Translations under genes and position numbers: made by a program
The notes under the pieces: model-generated
What the model saw: the letters and a program-made list of their open reading frames with translations, nothing else
What the model was told of the DNA's origin: nothing
Database searches by the model: none
Source of the DNA: Candidatus Hydrogenedentota bacterium
GTDB lineage: Bacteria; UBA8481; J006
DNA: 6,843 nucleotides
Direction: 5' to 3'
NCBI GenBank assembly: GCA_003697085.1
Contig: RFFU01000122.1
Location: forward strand, 1 to 6,843
In this document: piece by piece, positions 1 to 6,843 of the stretch
Layout of the letters: each line of letters starts with the position of its first letter
Position numbering within the stretch: position 1 is the first letter of the stretch

Positions 1-561
1 CTGATTCTTCCGGGACAAGGCCACTTCGGAACGGCGATGGAACGCCTCCATTCGCGCGGGTTTGTCTCGTATCTGCGACATCGTCTTGGAAGAGAAAACC
101 CGAACCGGCCTCCGTTTCTGGGAATCTGCCTCGGACTTCAAATCCTCTTCGAAGGCAGCGAAGAAAGTCCGGGTATCGAAGGTTTGGGGCTTTATCCCGG
201 AACCGTCCGGCGATTTCCCACCCGGATCGAGAACCGGCGTTTGATCGTGCCGTTGATGGGGTGGAAGAAGACCGAGACCGTTCGCGGGTCACGCCCCGGT
301 ATCTTTGCCCCCACCACCCCACTCCGTGAAGATCCCTGGTGGTATTTCGTTCATTCTTATTTCGTTCCCGCTCGGCTCTTCTTTCCCAATTCGGATATCC
401 TGCTGACGGCGCTGGAAACCTGGTACGGCGTTCCCTTCACAGCCGCGATCGCCGACCCGCCGCTTTACGCAACGCAGTTTCATCCCGAGAAATCAGGCCG
501 CGAAGGACTCGAATTGCTGCGCCGATTCGTTGAAACAACAAAACGGTTCCTCCAAACCTGA
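1..561 (+). CDS. hisH: Imidazole glycerol phosphate synthase, glutaminase subunit HisH (5' end missing)
   Basis: HisH hydrolyses glutamine and channels the ammonia to HisF, which makes imidazole glycerol phosphate and AICAR in histidine biosynthesis in the cytoplasm. The frame is open from base 1, giving 186 visible residues. The first ones read LILPGQGHFG, which normally lies about 45-50 residues into HisH, so roughly that many codons are missing; the ATG at 37 is internal. The class I glutamine amidotransferase triad is present: nucleophile Cys43 in GICLGLQ (codon 127-129), His161 (481-483) and Glu163 (487-489) in FHPEKSG. The family segment YFVHSYFVPA is also present. Two family motifs deviate: the usual PGVG oxyanion-strand motif reads PGQG, and the usual PHMGWN segment reads PLMGWKK. 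The gene ends in TGA. No hisA or hisF follows, because the next gene is convergent. The family assignment is very secure; activity is inferred from the intact triad. Confidence 0.95.
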   Translation: MILPGQGHFGTAMERLHSRGFVSYLRHRLGRENPNRPPFLGICLGLQILFEGSEESPGIEGLGLYPGTVRRFPTRIENRRLIVPLMGWKKTETVRGSRPGIFAPTTPLREDPWWYFVHSYFVPARLFFPNSDILLTALETWYGVPFTAAIADPPLYATQFHPEKSGREGLELLRRFVETTKRFLQT

Positions 562-611: not shown

Positions 612-3467
612 CTATTCCACGTTCAGGATTCGGTTGTTCTTGTTCAACGCATCCCATGAACCGTCCGCGACGAACTTGTACTCATAGCGCCCCCGCGAGA
701 GAGAAAGGACGATCTCCCACATTCCATCGGGACGCTTCTTCATCGGTAACGCATTCATATCCCATCCGTTGAACTCTCCGGCCACGGTTACGCGACGCGC
801 CGTCGGCGCAGACACGGTCAGTTTCACCTCGTGCGGCAGCCGGGCCGCGACATGCGGAAGCAAGACCCGCTGGTAAAATTCCGGATCGGTATTGTAGAAG
901 ATCGCGGAGGAACGGGGAGGGAGGATGACTTCCGAGCGGGTCACAGGCGGACCCAACGGCGTGACTCCGGCTTTCTCTCCGTTGGCGACGGGAATCCAGT
1001 GCGAAGCGGGTATCTCAAAGCGCGCGGAGGTTGCGGAAGCATTCATCAGAACCAAAACGTTCTCCCATTCGTCCTGAGCCTCTCCTCGATTTACGACGAA
1101 TCCGATGGCCCGAGGCGGGACGCGAAGTTCCAGATCGTCGTCGAGGAAGAACACTCCGCGACGCACCGCGTCCGCCGTCGTCTTTCGAAAGAGGGGATGT
1201 GCTCGACGCAGGGCAATCAACCCGCGGTAGTATTCGAAAACTTCCCGATGCTTCTTCTTCCATTCCCAGTGGATCATATTGATCCTGTCCGGCTTGTTGT
1301 AACTGTTCTCCTCCCCGTCCTTCGTCCTGAGAAGATCCTGCCCCCCGTGGAGAAACGGTATTCCCTGCGCCGTCAAAATCGCCACAGCCGCGAGTTTGTC
1401 CATCTGCTCGCGATCCTTCTTCGTGACCTGAGTCCAATTTCTCGTCGTTAAAAGAATCCGATCCCAAAGCGTGTGGTTGTCATGAGCAGCAACGTAGTTG
1501 ATCGTTTCGGTCGGAGCGTCCGTAAAATCGTCGATGCTTCCGAGAATTCCCTTCTTCACCTTCTCTACGTCGCGGCCGTCCTGGATGAATCCCGGCTCCG
1601 TGTTGAAGGTTCCCCCTTTCAAGGCATCCCGAAAATGATCGTTGAAGACCGCAAATCCCTTCCCGCGTTGATCTCCCTTGCTCGTCACTTTCACCGGCGT
1701 CGATCCTCCCGCCCACGGCTCCCCGTAAATCATAATCTCCGGCTTGATCTTCCGCAATTCTCTCACGATCGTCTCGAGCGTTTCGAGATCGATCAGCCCC
1801 ATCAAGTCGAAACGAAAGCCGTCGACGTCGTATTTCCGAACCCAGTATTTCATCGAATCGACGATAAATTTCCTTGCCATCGGCGCTTCCGTCCGAAACT
1901 CGTTTCCCGTTCCGCTTCCGTTCCAATAGGAACCGTCGTCCTTGACCCGGTAATAATAGTTCGGTGCCAATCCGTTGAAACTCATCCGAACCTCCGGGTT
2001 TCCCTCCGCCGTATGGTTGTACACCACGTCCATCACGACTTTGATTCCGTTCCTGTGAAACGCATCGATCATCTTCTTGGCTTCCCGGACGCGCGAGGCA
2101 TCATCACGCTTCGTAGCGTACCACCCATCTGGAGAGTTGAAATGAAAGGGCATATACCCCCAGTTGTACGCTTCGCTCGCTTCGTCATTGTCGAAATCCT
2201 GGAACGGCATAATCTGAACCGTGTTCACTCCCAACTCCTTGATATGATCGAGGCCCGTGCTGATCTCAGGATTCCCCTCCAGCCGCGTTCCCTCCTCCGT
2301 CAAACCCAGATATTTTCCCCTGTGCTGAATGCCGCTTTTCGGGTCGATCGTAAAATCTCGAATGTGAATTTCATAGATGACCGCGTCGGCGATTCCGAAA
2401 CGCGGAGCCGGACTTACCGGTGTGTTGTCGTCGATGATCATGCCCCGCCCGTTATGGGCCGTGTTGCAGTGAGAATACGGGTCGATCACCTCGTACTCGG
2501 CATCCGGATACTTCACGCGATATTTGTAATATTTGTCGAGCAGATTTCCTTCAACAATCGCTTCCCAAATACCCTGGCCGATCCGCTTCATCGGCACCAC
2601 GTCGCGGGGCGGCCCCGTCGGCCCTTCGTAGATCACGACGCTGACTCCGGCCGATGTCGGGGAGAAGGTCCGGAAGATCGTCTTCTCCGGAGAATAGAGC
2701 GCGCCGAGTTCACCGTCGTAGCGGTAGGAATCAACGACGGCTCCCGGAATCAACGGCGCCGGTCGATAAGCCCCGAAGGAAACCACGATTCCGGCGACCG
2801 ATTCCGGATCAATCTCTTGTCCCAGTCGGACGAGGATCGTTCTGACCTTGAGCCCCTGTCCCGGAGCCGGAACCGCCTCCACGACCGGAACGGCGGAGCG
2901 GTCGGGCAATCGCACCGAGACCGTCCCCTTGCGGACATAGGAACGATCAATGCTCTTGGAAAGAACGACCCGAACCTCGTTCACCTTGTCCAACAAGGCC
3001 CGAAGAATGCGCGGACGCGTATCGGGCGGCGAGGAATAGAGGTTCTTGTCCGCCGAAAGAATAAAGACATTACGCCCCAGGGACGGCGTCCAATAACGAT
3101 CCGGATCGTCCTTCGCCTTCCAATCACCGTATTTCGGCAAAAGTCCGATCCGGTCCACGTTCGAACCGTAATCGTTTTTGTCGAGGCGGAAGACAAGGCC
3201 GTAGCCGTCTGTGCCCGCCGGCGTGATCTCGCGGCTCGTTCCACTCGCCGGGTTCCAAGTCCACAGCGTCCAGCCGGTGTAATCGCCTTCCGGCCGATGG
3301 TAGTGAACGAGAATCTCCTCGGCGGACGCGGGAACCCTGACCGTGAGAAGAACCGCCGCCAGAGAAACGAACCGCCGCGCCCGTTGCCACAATCCCACGC
3401 CCTTTTCTTTCACCTTCCTATCCTGTTTCCTTTTCCGCTCTTCCTTACGAGCCTCTTCGGCGCCCAT
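612..3467 (-). CDS. pulA: Secreted type I pullulanase (GH13) with CBM41 and C-terminal glycogen-binding module
   Basis: The predicted role is hydrolysis of alpha-1,6 branch points in pullulan, starch or glycogen outside the cytoplasm. Domains in the 951-residue product: signal peptide 1-49 with an unusually long charged n-region and probable ASA|EE cleavage; PUD/CBM41 at about 51-150 (HYHRPEGDYTGWTLWTW); an E-set region about 153-236; CBM48-like about 250-335; GH13 barrel about 360-760; beta-sandwich about 760-860; AMPK-type glycogen-binding module 876-951 (VAGEFNGWD, YEYKFVADGSW). GH13 motifs are intact: region I DVVYNH (Asp480-His485), nucleophile Asp554 in GFRFD, acid/base Glu583 in YGEPW, transition-state Asp663 in AAHDNH. 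The type I pullulanase signature YNWGYDP reads YNWGYMP (434-440). I chose the ATG at 3467 for its AGGAGG site 10 bases upstream; a TTG at 3542 lacks one, and a GTG at 3398 would give a more usual signal peptide. It lies 154 bases downstream of the other GH13 gene on the same strand, so co-transcription is likely. Pullulanase identity is secure; exact specificity (pullulanase or glycogen debranching) is inferred. Confidence 0.93.
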   Translation of the reverse strand: MGAEEARKEERKRKQDRKVKEKGVGLWQRARRFVSLAAVLLTVRVPASAEEILVHYHRPEGDYTGWTLWTWNPASGTSREITPAGTDGYGLVFRLDKNDYGSNVDRIGLLPKYGDWKAKDDPDRYWTPSLGRNVFILSADKNLYSSPPDTRPRILRALLDKVNEVRVVLSKSIDRSYVRKGTVSVRLPDRSAVPVVEAVPAPGQGLKVRTILVRLGQEIDPESVAGIVVSFGAYRPAPLIPGAVVDSYRYDGELGALYSPEKTIFRTFSPTSAGVSVVIYEGPTGPPRDVVPMKRIGQGIWEAIVEGNLLDKYYKYRVKYPDAEYEVIDPYSHCNTAHNGRGMIIDDNTPVSPAPRFGIADAVIYEIHIRDFTIDPKSGIQHRGKYLGLTEEGTRLEGNPEISTGLDHIKELGVNTVQIMPFQDFDNDEASEAYNWGYMPFHFNSPDGWYATKRDDASRVREAKKMIDAFHRNGIKVVMDVVYNHTAEGNPEVRMSFNGLAPNYYYRVKDDGSYWNGSGTGNEFRTEAPMARKFIVDSMKYWVRKYDVDGFRFDLMGLIDLETLETIVRELRKIKPEIMIYGEPWAGGSTPVKVTSKGDQRGKGFAVFNDHFRDALKGGTFNTEPGFIQDGRDVEKVKKGILGSIDDFTDAPTETINYVAAHDNHTLWDRILLTTRNWTQVTKKDREQMDKLAAVAILTAQGIPFLHGGQDLLRTKDGEENSYNKPDRINMIHWEWKKKHREVFEYYRGLIALRRAHPLFRKTTADAVRRGVFFLDDDLELRVPPRAIGFVVNRGEAQDEWENVLVLMNASATSARFEIPASHWIPVANGEKAGVTPLGPPVTRSEVILPPRSSAIFYNTDPEFYQRVLLPHVAARLPHEVKLTVSAPTARRVTVAGEFNGWDMNALPMKKRPDGMWEIVLSLSRGRYEYKFVADGSWDALNKNNRILNVE

Positions 3468-3621
3468 CGTTCTCTCTCCTCCTGTCGTTTCTCTGCTTTC
3501 TCCTATTTCCCCACTCTCGCTTTTCCTCCCGTTCCGGTCCAAGCGCGGGTTTTCTCTTCCTCCCCCCGGCCTCGATACTTCGTTTCAGCAAGAAACGTTC
3601 CGTTCGTTCTCCAAACCGGCA
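3468..3621 (-). other. Purine-rich intergenic leader between the two glucan-hydrolase genes
   Basis: This gap follows the stop of the upstream GH13 gene on the minus strand. Read on that strand, the part nearest the pullulanase (about 3530-3469) is almost all purine, and the purine bias continues into the first codons of the pullulanase. I saw no convincing -35/-10 pair. A 6-bp inverted repeat (CGTTTC/GAAACG, 3581-3597, 5-base loop) is present but is AT-balanced and has no T-run after it. The simplest reading is a short untranslated spacer inside an operon. Confidence 0.5.
3478..3483 (-). promoter_or_regulatory. Ribosome binding site of the pullulanase gene
   Basis: On the minus strand this is a perfect AGGAGG, 10 bases before the ATG at 3467-3465. 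It is the reason for preferring this start over the in-frame TTG at 3542, whose upstream bases give only a weak match. A competing weaker site (AGGAAGGTG, about 3418-3410) precedes an in-frame GTG at 3398, with a longer spacing of about 12 bases. Confidence 0.7.
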
Positions 3622-6600
3622 CTACTCCTCCGCTTTCCCGATTTTTTCGTAAACGGCCGTGAAGCGGGGCGGAAGGCCCGAGAGTACCATAACTCCTTTC
3701 CGCACGTCCACTTCGCCGCCGCCGAGAAGATCACGATAGCGACCGTCTTCGATTCGTCCTTCGACGGGAATCTTCAAACCCGGAACTGCTGCATCGGAAG
3801 CGTTGAAGACAGAAACGACGGATCGTTCTCCGTCCGAGGAAAGCGCGACGAGCACCCGATTTCGCGCAAAGATCGGGTCCCACCGCACGGGAGCGGGAAG
3901 TCTCCCGGTCCGGCGGAGGCGTCCCAAACGGCGAAAATTCTCCAACAACCCCGAATCCCAGTGCGCGGCATCGCCCCACGGCATCACGCGACGGCAATCG
4001 GGATCGTTCTCCCCCTCCACGCCGACCTCGTCTCCGTAATAGATCACCGGGATGCCCGGAAAGGTGTACTGAAAGACGGCGGCTTGCCGGACTCTTTCCA
4101 GACTTCCTCCCGCCAGGGTTCGAAAACGCTTCGTATCGTGCGATGAAATATGGTTGTACTCGATCGGCGCGACCTGCGGCGGGAATTCCATCAGGATCGA
4201 CACGGCGCGCGCGGCGAAGGACTCGGCGTCTTCCTTCTCTTCGGCGAAGAAGTCGATGATCGCCTGCCGTAACTCGTAATTCATCGTGGCGTCGAATTCG
4301 TCTCCCCGCAACCATGGCTCCGGCATCTTCCAAACCTCGCCCACAAGATAGGCGTCCGGCCGGAGCCTCTTCATTGCAATTCGAAACGCCTTCCAAAAGT
4401 CGTGACCGGCACCATGAGGCGCGTCGAGCCGCCAACCGCCGATCCCGAATTTCATCCATTTTTCGACGGCGGAAAAGAGATAGTCGCGGACCTTCGGATT
4501 CGCCGTGTTCCAAGACGGCAACTGACCGAACCCCCACCAGCAGATGTAATAATTCGCCGGCGCGTTCGGTCCGCTTCCCTCGAAACGCGCCGGAAACGGC
4601 CATTTCAGGATCCGGTAATAATCGTAATACGGCGAGGAGGGACCGTTATTGACCACATCGCGGAAGAAGGGATGTTGATCCCCCGAATGGTTGAAGACGC
4701 CGTCCAGAAGAATCCGCATACCGCGTTGTCCAGCCTCGGTTATCAGGTTGCGGAAGACTTCGTCGTCGCCAAACTGCGGATCGATCTTCGTATAATCGGA
4801 AATATCATACTTGGCCGACGACGGTGCTTGAAAGATCGGGTTGAACTTGATGACGGTCACGCCAAGCGAATCGAGATAATCGAGATGTTCGATCACACCA
4901 GCAAGATCCCCGCCGTATTTCGCATTCCAACCGTCCGGGGAGGCGGTTAACGGCTCGTACCGCCACGGACGAACTCCGTTCGGGTTCCGCGGATCACCTT
5001 TCGGATCGTTCCCGGGATCGCCGTTGGCGAACCGGTCTGGAAAGATGTGGTAAATCACGCCTCCTCGAATCCATCTCGGAGTCTCGAAGATCGAAACACC
5101 CTTCGGCACGAAGTACCAAGGTGAATCACCGTCGCTCTCAAGCCCTCCTCGATCGACCAGAAACGTATTCCCGCCGTCCTCAACCGAAAAAATGTAGCCG
5201 GTGGCGACGGAGTCGAAGGGAATCCGACCGCGCCAGTACTCGTATCGTCCGTCGTGGGTGAAAGGTTCAAGCGGTATTCGGCGGGACTCCGTTCGAGGAA
5301 CCACGGCCACATCTTCCACGTCCTCATCGGCAACACGCAATGTCAGCGTGATCGTCGCCGTATCCTCCCGCGTCACGTAAATCGCTGTTCGATCGTGGGC
5401 GATAGCCGCGCCCGCAACAACACCATCGCCACGATGAGCCGTGATCTCCTTCGTCGGTTCGTCTCCCGGAACGATGAGAACGCTGTTGACTCCCCCGTAA
5501 CCATCCGCTTCCTTCACAGCAGCCGTTGGATCCGGAATCCATTCGTTACCATCGACAACGAACTTGTATGGGTATTTCCCGGGGGCGAGTTCCAATTCCG
5601 CGGTCCAAACGCCGTCACCGTCGTCATCCTTCATTGGCGTTGCCGTCTTTGACCAGTCGTTGAAGGCACCCGCTACAACCACCGTCTTCACGGGCTTGCC
5701 GGGACGGTAACTGAAGCGGATGGGACCGCGCTCGGCCCAAAGATCACGCCGCGGCGGAGTCCCGGAGCGCGGAGGCGAAGCGCGCGCTTCCACCGGTTGC
5801 GCTCCGACTCCCGCCACTGTCCCGGGAGTACGCTCATTCCCAGCACTCGATATATTCAGAACGGAATTCTTCCCTCCAAATCCGTCGTCCGCCGTATTCG
5901 CGTTTTCCGGATCGACAACCCAATCCTTCCCGTTGATAACGAACTTGTAGTGATAAAGACCCGGCGCCAACGGAATTCGGACTTCCCAAACGCCATCACC
6001 GTCCGGATCACTCATCGGGTTGGCGTTTTTGTCCCAGTTGTTGAAACTTCCCGCCACCGAGACGCTCCGCGCTCCCGCCGGTGCCCGGAACCGAAAGAGA
6101 TATCCTGATCCCCCCGCCGATCCTCCGGAACCACCGCTGGAAACGCTCGCGGAAGCCGCTCCCCCACCACCGACCTTCGCCACGGAGTTCTGACCCCCGT
6201 AGCCGTCGTCCGCCTTCAAGGGGTTGTCCGGATCGAGCAACCAGTCTGTTCCATTAACGACATACTTGTACTGATACTCTCCCGGCGAAAGAGGTAACAT
6301 TACCTCCCAAATTCCATCGCCGTCGGGATCCTTCATCGGAGTAGCACTCACGTCCCAGTTGTTGAAACTGCCCGCCACCGAGACGCTCCGCGCTCCCGCC
6401 GGCGCTCGAAACCGAAAGAGATACCCGCCGCTCGTTCGTCCTCCTCCCGCGGCCGCTCCCGCGGTTCCCGCCGCCGAAGCCGACGCCCTCGCGCGCGCCG
6501 CTCCCCCCGCCGTCACCTTCGCCACCGAGTTCTGACCCCCGTAGCCGTCGTCCGCCTTCGCCGGATTATCCGGGTCCACCACCCAGTCCGTTCCGTTCAC

Positions 6601-6843
6601 CACGTACTTGTATTGATACTCCCCCGGCGCCAAATCCACCACCGCTTCCCAGACCCCGTCTCCGTCCGCGTCGCTCATCGGCGTCGCGTTCATATCCCAG
6701 TTGTTGAAACTTCCCGCCACCGAGATGCTTCGCGCTCCCGCAGGCGCTCGAAACCGAAAGAGATACCCGCCGCTCGTTCGTCCTCCTCCCGCGGCCGCCC
6801 CCGCGGCTCCCGCCGCCGAAGCCGACGCCGCGCTCGTGGAAGC
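3622..6843 (-). CDS. Neopullulanase/cyclomaltodextrinase-like GH13 enzyme with four N-terminal glycogen-binding modules (5' end missing)
   Basis: A GH13 hydrolase acting on alpha-1,4 glucans, probably exported. The frame is open to the right edge and ends in TAG; 1073 residues are visible and no start is in the window. In visible numbering: linker 1-26; AMPK-type glycogen-binding modules at 27-110, 141-224, 248-331 and 374-458, separated by Ala/Gly/Ser-rich linkers (the last Pro/Arg-rich); CBM34-like beta domain about 465-580; GH13 barrel about 592-985; C-terminal beta domain to the end. Catalytic motifs: region I DGVFNH (Asp714-His719), nucleophile Asp807 in GWRLD (4423-4425), acid/base Glu836 in VGEVW (4336-4338), transition-state Asp903 in SSHDTKRF (4135-4137). 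The segments NPIFQAPSSAKYD, PWLRGDEFDATMNY, YYGDEVGVEGENDPDCR and the CBM34-like domain match the GH13_20 neopullulanase/maltogenic-amylase group. The fifth conserved region reads QLPSWN rather than MPKLN, so subfamily and product pattern are uncertain. The module array is unusual, since this group normally has only one N-terminal domain. It likely shares a transcript with the pullulanase downstream. Confidence 0.93.
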   Translation of the reverse strand, partial: ASTSAASASAAGAAGAAAGGGRTSGGYLFRFRAPAGARSISVAGSFNNWDMNATPMSDADGDGVWEAVVDLAPGEYQYKYVVNGTDWVVDPDNPAKADDGYGGQNSVAKVTAGGAARARASASAAGTAGAAAGGGRTSGGYLFRFRAPAGARSVSVAGSFNNWDVSATPMKDPDGDGIWEVMLPLSPGEYQYKYVVNGTDWLLDPDNPLKADDGYGGQNSVAKVGGGGAASASVSSGGSGGSAGGSGYLFRFRAPAGARSVSVAGSFNNWDKNANPMSDPDGDGVWEVRIPLAPGLYHYKFVINGKDWVVDPENANTADDGFGGKNSVLNISSAGNERTPGTVAGVGAQPVEARASPPRSGTPPRRDLWAERGPIRFSYRPGKPVKTVVVAGAFNDWSKTATPMKDDDGDGVWTAELELAPGKYPYKFVVDGNEWIPDPTAAVKEADGYGGVNSVLIVPGDEPTKEITAHRGDGVVAGAAIAHDRTAIYVTREDTATITLTLRVADEDVEDVAVVPRTESRRIPLEPFTHDGRYEYWRGRIPFDSVATGYIFSVEDGGNTFLVDRGGLESDGDSPWYFVPKGVSIFETPRWIRGGVIYHIFPDRFANGDPGNDPKGDPRNPNGVRPWRYEPLTASPDGWNAKYGGDLAGVIEHLDYLDSLGVTVIKFNPIFQAPSSAKYDISDYTKIDPQFGDDEVFRNLITEAGQRGMRILLDGVFNHSGDQHPFFRDVVNNGPSSPYYDYYRILKWPFPARFEGSGPNAPANYYICWWGFGQLPSWNTANPKVRDYLFSAVEKWMKFGIGGWRLDAPHGAGHDFWKAFRIAMKRLRPDAYLVGEVWKMPEPWLRGDEFDATMNYELRQAIIDFFAEEKEDAESFAARAVSILMEFPPQVAPIEYNHISSHDTKRFRTLAGGSLERVRQAAVFQYTFPGIPVIYYGDEVGVEGENDPDCRRVMPWGDAAHWDSGLLENFRRLGRLRRTGRLPAPVRWDPIFARNRVLVALSSDGERSVVSVFNASDAAVPGLKIPVEGRIEDGRYRDLLGGGEVDVRKGVMVLSGLPPRFTAVYEKIGKAEE
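5470..5724 (-). other. Fourth glycogen-binding module (diverged copy)
   Basis: This codes for the module next to the CBM34-like domain, 85 residues long. It keeps the family core: VAGAFNDW, the acidic loop DDDGDGVW, PYKFVVDGNEW and the end motif DGYGGVNSV. It differs clearly from the three upstream copies, especially in its first 15 residues, and shares no long DNA identity with them. It is therefore an older member of the array or was acquired separately. The Trp, Lys, Trp and Asn that contact glucan in the AMPK beta glycogen-binding domain have counterparts here. Confidence 0.8.
5851..6843 (-). repeat. Tandem DNA repeats encoding glycogen-binding modules and linkers
   Basis: Three 252-base module units lie at 6514-6765, 6172-6423 and 5851-6102, with start-to-start spacing of 342 and 321 bases. 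Copies one and two match at 70 of 84 residues, and two and three at 60 of 84 (counted by hand). At the DNA level a 71-base block (6695-6765, 6353-6423, 6032-6102) is nearly the same in all three, with 4 mismatches between neighbours. The linker DNA at 6763-6829 matches 6421-6487 at 65 of 67 bases. A further 45-base block (6515-6559 and 6173-6217) has one mismatch. The linker at the right edge is a near copy of the next one, so another module may precede it outside the window. Confidence 0.9.

Follow-up and report, generated by a model that had tools for sequence, protein, structure and literature searches.

We consider it likely that the gene on the minus strand of this window (the whole stretch analysed, 6843 bp, which is the complete contig C18 of a 3.2-Mb source genome in 145 contigs) encodes a secreted neopullulanase-like GH13 alpha-glucan hydrolase, built from a core and a lineage-specific expansion of CBM48 (AMPK-type) modules that would hold the polymer, with a pullulanase as its partner. 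The protein follows a known design in an uncharacterised variant and is not a new kind of system, because the layout recurs in several other bacterial lineages. The frame comprises 1073 codons, stops at 3622 and is open at the contig edge; the gene continues past 6843 and its 5' end lies off the contig, and the four modules seen here are therefore a lower bound. The features are as follows.

3622-6843, minus strand: 3' part of the GH13 gene, with four AMPK-type modules, a CBM34-like domain, GH13 and a C-terminal beta domain (open frame and Pfam)
6511-6753, minus strand: AMPK1_CBM module W1 (50.8 bits; AF2 model close to 1Z0N)
6655-6672, minus strand: DADGDG loop of W1 (sequence)
6172-6411, minus strand: AMPK1_CBM module W2 (49.0 bits)
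6313-6330, minus strand: the same loop in W2 (sequence)
5845-6090, minus strand: AMPK1_CBM module W3 (50.4 bits)
5992-6009, minus strand: the same loop in W3 (sequence)
5728-5847, minus strand: linker between W3 and W4, about 40 residues, rich in Pro, Gly, Ser, Ala and Arg (translation)
5467-5691, minus strand: AMPK1_CBM module W4, adjoining the CBM34-like domain (47.3 bits)
5611-5628, minus strand: the same loop in W4 (sequence)
5146-5409, minus strand: CBM34-like N-domain (Alpha-amylase_N, PF02903; 25.1 bits, cut-off 23)
4003-5046, minus strand: GH13 catalytic (beta/alpha)8 domain (234.4 bits; relatives 1SMA, 1J0H and 1BVZ)
4423-4425, minus strand: nucleophile Asp807 in GGWRLD (alignment to 1SMA, conserved-region table)
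4336-4338, minus strand: acid/base Glu836 in GEVW (same alignment and table)
4135-4137, minus strand: stabiliser Asp903 in SSHD (same alignment and table)
612-3542, minus strand: type I pullulanase, likely exported; domains PUD (CBM41), CBM48 and GH13, with an AMPK1_CBM at the C-terminus (TIGR02104 632.8 bits, cut-off 504.5; Pfam; N-terminus)

The initial annotation had read this frame as four AMPK-type modules followed by a CBM34-like and a GH13 domain, and Pfam confirmed this with four AMPK1_CBM stretches (whole-protein E 2.6e-53), PF02903 and PF00128 (E 1.3e-68). Each of W1 to W4 scored between 47.3 and 50.8 bits against an AMPK1_CBM gathering cut-off of 26.8, and single-module scores of 47-51 bits exclude a chance match; an artefact of chance or low complexity was ruled out for the array by the Pfam and fold scores together. 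The AF2 model of W1 (pLDDT 96.1) superposed on the AMPK beta1 module 1Z0N with Z 13.8 and an rmsd of 1.3 A over 79 residues and on 4YEF, a cyclodextrin-complex entry, with Z 13.5; a Foldseek search was also run. The beta-sandwich proposed earlier for the modules, with the immunoglobulin-like fold of AMPK beta, was thus found in the one module modelled, W1. The fold matches of W1 also included the archaeal enzymes 4AEF and 4AEE (Z 12.3 and 11.6) and 6RZN, a CBM48 from a feruloyl esterase, which shows that CBM48 modules are not always alpha-glucan binders.

Counterparts of W100, K126, W133 and N150 of AMPK beta1, which we take to be the glucan-contacting residues in this numbering and in the rat AMPK beta1 sequence that we assumed for the mapping, were aligned in W1 to W4, as had been claimed, and likewise in modules A and B of a second contig described below; the alignment was the same when made against PDB chains. 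The modules of this gene resemble AMPK beta (1Z0M, 1Z0N and 4YEF; Z 13.5-13.8) in fold and in these four contacts, but differ from it by Tyr or Phe in place of Leu146, by Gly in place of Thr148, by a longer DxDGDG hairpin and by their tandem use on an enzyme. The acidic DxDGDG loop reported earlier can be read from the sequence in each of the four modules and is also present in A and B. It is not a special mark of this protein, because 36 of the 119 related modules gathered carry it, while the largest other group (48 modules) has a shorter DG or NG hairpin. DxDGDG is a common form of the loop, and here a candidate calcium site.

The 5' end of the gene was sought outside the window, and one other contig of the same genome, C20, has at its end an open frame that encodes AMPK modules. 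The translation of this frame opens with MKARSLQDVRRSTPLFFALMFSFFGTLLLSGTNSARA, which on inspection and in its hydropathy is a typical Sec signal; modules A and B follow, and then the beginning of a third module. Read in the direction of the gene, C18 opens with 81 bp that are found unchanged in the A-B linker of C20, and beyond them the two contigs differ. A copy of the final 82 bp of C20 lies further upstream, and B and W1 share 95% protein identity. The assembly evidently broke within near-identical repeats, and we infer that C20 almost certainly holds the 5' end of the GH13 gene and joins C18. The two contigs could be alleles from different strains. There would be at least five modules (A and W1-W4) if C18 is the allelic path after A, and seven if both pieces share one chromosome. 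Taken together, the signal peptide, the two modules and the 81-bp exact overlap make it probable that the enzyme is exported and has five modules or more, perhaps seven. On C20, a row of genes for DUF4956, CotH kinase/beta-helix and VTC (polyphosphate polymerase-like) proteins lies upstream of the gene start and on the other strand (L029:1285-5416).

The ortholog in G001, the only other genome of the phylum in the compared set, is also split between contigs. Its 5' contig encodes a signal peptide, two full modules and part of a third, and its 3' contig the remainder of a module, two further modules, a CBM34-type domain (PF02903, 30.9 bits) and GH13, which gives at least five modules in all. 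The signal peptides on C20 and on this 5' fragment bear out the earlier proposal that the enzyme is extracytoplasmic rather than cytoplasmic. The count of 'at least four' modules held in that four are present, and proved an undercount since C20 adds a signal peptide and two modules. W4 and the final module of the G001 ortholog group together in the module tree (support 89/86), and A, B and W1-W3 form one lineage group with one G001 module (90/75). This topology, from 83 columns that resolve few forks, fits an old proximal module and a younger distal expansion.

There is about an even chance that the assembly distorts the module count, with C18 and C20 as fragments, either collapsed or allelic, of a single array that has five, seven or more modules. 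Both contigs end inside near-identical repeats, as the 81-bp and 82-bp repeats indicate, and the G001 ortholog is broken in the same manner; on the other side, four modules are continuous in one contig and five is the minimum under either joining. Such a distortion would affect the number of modules and not their kind, and can be compatible with a secreted, multi-module neopullulanase-like enzyme.

Membership of the catalytic half in GH13 was supported by the PF00128 match and an intact Asp/Glu/Asp triad, and the CBM34-like domain lies directly before it with a weak match, barely over the cut-off. The closest solved relatives are the maltogenic amylase 1SMA, the neopullulanases 1J0H and 1BVZ (E 5e-112 to 2e-107 for these three) and the cyclomaltodextrinase 1EA9. 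Like this protein, 1SMA, 1J0H and 1BVZ of GH13_20 have a CBM34-type N-domain and the same triad, but they lack CBM48 and carry MPKLN in region V, the motif that marks GH13_20/21 (PMC9781549, PMC11239784). Region V reads QLPSWN here and WLPEFN in the G001 ortholog; for this reason the assignment to GH13_20 was withheld, the protein was filed as neopullulanase-like with no subfamily assigned, and its bond specificity is uncertain. The initial annotation of a GH13_20-type enzyme stands as far as the neopullulanase-like character, the CBM34-type N-domain and the triad are concerned, and fails in the strict sense at region V. Kinship to reference GH13_20 sequences was taken from pairwise best hits. 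Matches to the NCBIfam cyclomaltodextrinase and MalZ models were below their cut-offs, and an AF2 model of W4-CBM34-GH13, built from four aligned sequences only, was poor (pLDDT 56).

The nearest published layout is archaeal. PDB entry 5OT1, deposited as 'Pullulanase type II, GH13 family' and presumably the pullulan-hydrolysing enzyme of Thermococcus kodakarensis, has one AMPK-type module, an N-domain and GH13 in the same order, and it aligns with residues 371-983 of our protein (E 4.9e-90) and with W4 and the N-domain (E 9.6e-12). W4, the N-domain and GH13 thus align along 5OT1 with the extra modules in front, whereas in the archaeal entry a single module was matched, with 11 extra residues after the second Trp that W4 lacks. 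Archaeal GH13_20 enzymes are described as having a CBM48 followed by CBM34, and the bacterial ones as having CBM34 only (PMC9781549, PMC4706853); the CBM48 domain is absent from the bacterial enzymes compared in PMC4706853, and its loop in the archaeal enzymes reaches into the active site (PMC4706853). The archaeal cyclodextrinases and neopullulanases T. kodakarensis TK1770, P. furiosus 4AEF and S. marinus 4AEE share the CBM48-CBM34-GH13 layout (PMC4706853, PMC9781549), but unlike our protein each has one CBM48 only.

In a survey of 386 genomes, frames from many bacterial families had between one and five AMPK modules in front of an N-domain stretch and GH13, and the distance from the last module to GH13 was near-constant (112-135 residues) in most of the clade. 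One module was found in L011, L037/L079, L039/L080 and L172-L177, two in L169, L170 and L180, three in L166, L167, L076 and L182, four in L171 and five in L168; G026 probably has four as well, divided between contigs L071 and L073. The multi-module relatives L166-L171, L076, L182 and L071+L073 place two to five modules before the same N-domain and GH13 at constant spacing; they come from other lineages, and those aligned, L166-L171, are 34-40% identical to our protein. Region V of the multi-module bacterial relatives reads MPDLN, HPNLN and similar, in contrast to QLPSWN. The N-domain exceeded the CBM34 cut-off in L166, L168, L169, L174 and L175, and Pfam reported no CBM34 domain in L167, L170, L171 and L180. 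The survey ruled out the idea that this architecture, although unusual, is unique to this protein. Our literature searches, which covered few subscription papers, found no neopullulanase-like enzyme described with more than one CBM48, in tandem or otherwise. Given the starred branches of the GH13 tree, the label must have switched between single-module and multi-module three times or more, which indicates that arrays were gained or lost repeatedly.

Arrays also occurred in frames in which a catalytic domain was not detected, with six AMPK-type modules in G030 (L074:5196-8162, minus strand) and four in G001 (L067:7646-10720, minus strand), and it is possible that these encode glucan-binding surface proteins. 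A 2516-aa frame of uncultured Ruminococcus RUG14733 (L020:7812-15359, plus strand) has eight CBM48/X25-like modules and gave no GH13 match at the threshold used.

The pullulanase gene lies downstream of the GH13 gene on the same strand, and its product is probably exported, as judged from its N-terminus; it carries an AMPK module at its C-terminus on top of the N-terminal CBM48 and PUD. Convergent with it on the plus strand is a 5'-truncated hisH (imidazole glycerol phosphate synthase subunit; window 1-561), and an Rfam search of the window gave no match. In G001, malQ adjoins the GH13 gene and an ABC-transporter ATPase (by eye) adjoins its 5' fragment. Further AMPK-module proteins are encoded on C106, C70 and C97 of the source genome, and one on C9 scored below the cut-off. 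The pullulanase, the malQ and ABC neighbours in G001 and these further proteins point to an organism that uses alpha-glucan and exports many proteins that bind it. The C70 frame (G000:C70, L186:1-9480, plus strand) is a giant one (3499 aa reported by the search, 3146 aa read) with lamin-tail, GH13 pieces, CBM20 and fibronectin type III domains.

In the secreted enzyme that we propose, W4, the CBM34-like domain, GH13 and the C-domain would form a core equivalent to the published archaeal layout, and the lineage-specific expansion would add at least four more CBM48 (A, W1-W3, possibly B and more) on N-terminal linkers that the translation shows to be rich in Ala, Gly and Ser. Each distal module would bind an alpha-glucan helix, as in AMPK beta, and jointly the modules may keep the enzyme attached to starch or glycogen outside the cell or in the periplasm, where the GH13 domain would hydrolyse alpha-1,4 bonds and the neighbouring pullulanase would take off the branches. 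Multivalent attachment to large or insoluble glucan, as suggested earlier, would be plausible. When two starch-binding domains of R. bromii Sas20 were joined, binding to granular starch showed no avidity effect (PMC9112005). Avidity does not follow automatically from a tandem of such domains, which calls for caution with the present array.

Two other roles of the array were weighed against this reading. It is unlikely that the enzyme is a soluble dextrinase for small maltodextrins and cyclodextrins whose extra modules are baggage of unstable repeats with little effect on activity: its catalytic relatives are indeed cyclomaltodextrinases and maltogenic amylases, the near-identity of W1 and B is a sign of recent duplication and module number ranges from 1 to 5 in relatives, but export signals are found on C20, on the 5' fragment of the ortholog and on the pullulanase, arrays have appeared or been retained in several distinct lineages, and the contact residues are undecayed in the extra copies. 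Conservation of these residues in every module, for which a pure spacer would have no need, also makes it quite improbable that the array is mainly a spacer or a cell-surface tether to the cell's own envelope glucan or a partner rather than to a food polymer. The long low-complexity linkers and the GH13-less arrays of relatives would suit such a role, whereas the enzyme acts on alpha-glucan by homology and adjoins a pullulanase. Within the proposed reading of a polymer-holding enzyme, we put forward only tentatively, and as rather unlikely, that changes of module number by repeat recombination at the population level tune the hold of the amylase on its polymer, and that similar arrays were built several times independently on the CBM48-CBM34-GH13 core.

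The CBM48-CBM34-GH13 design, described as archaeal with one CBM48, is widespread in bacteria with one to at least five modules. This natural series of n = 1-5 on one core would allow the effect of each extra module on affinity and on the attack of granules and glycogen to be measured, and since it uses a module type with a well-known glucan-binding structure, its best use may be in testing multivalency.
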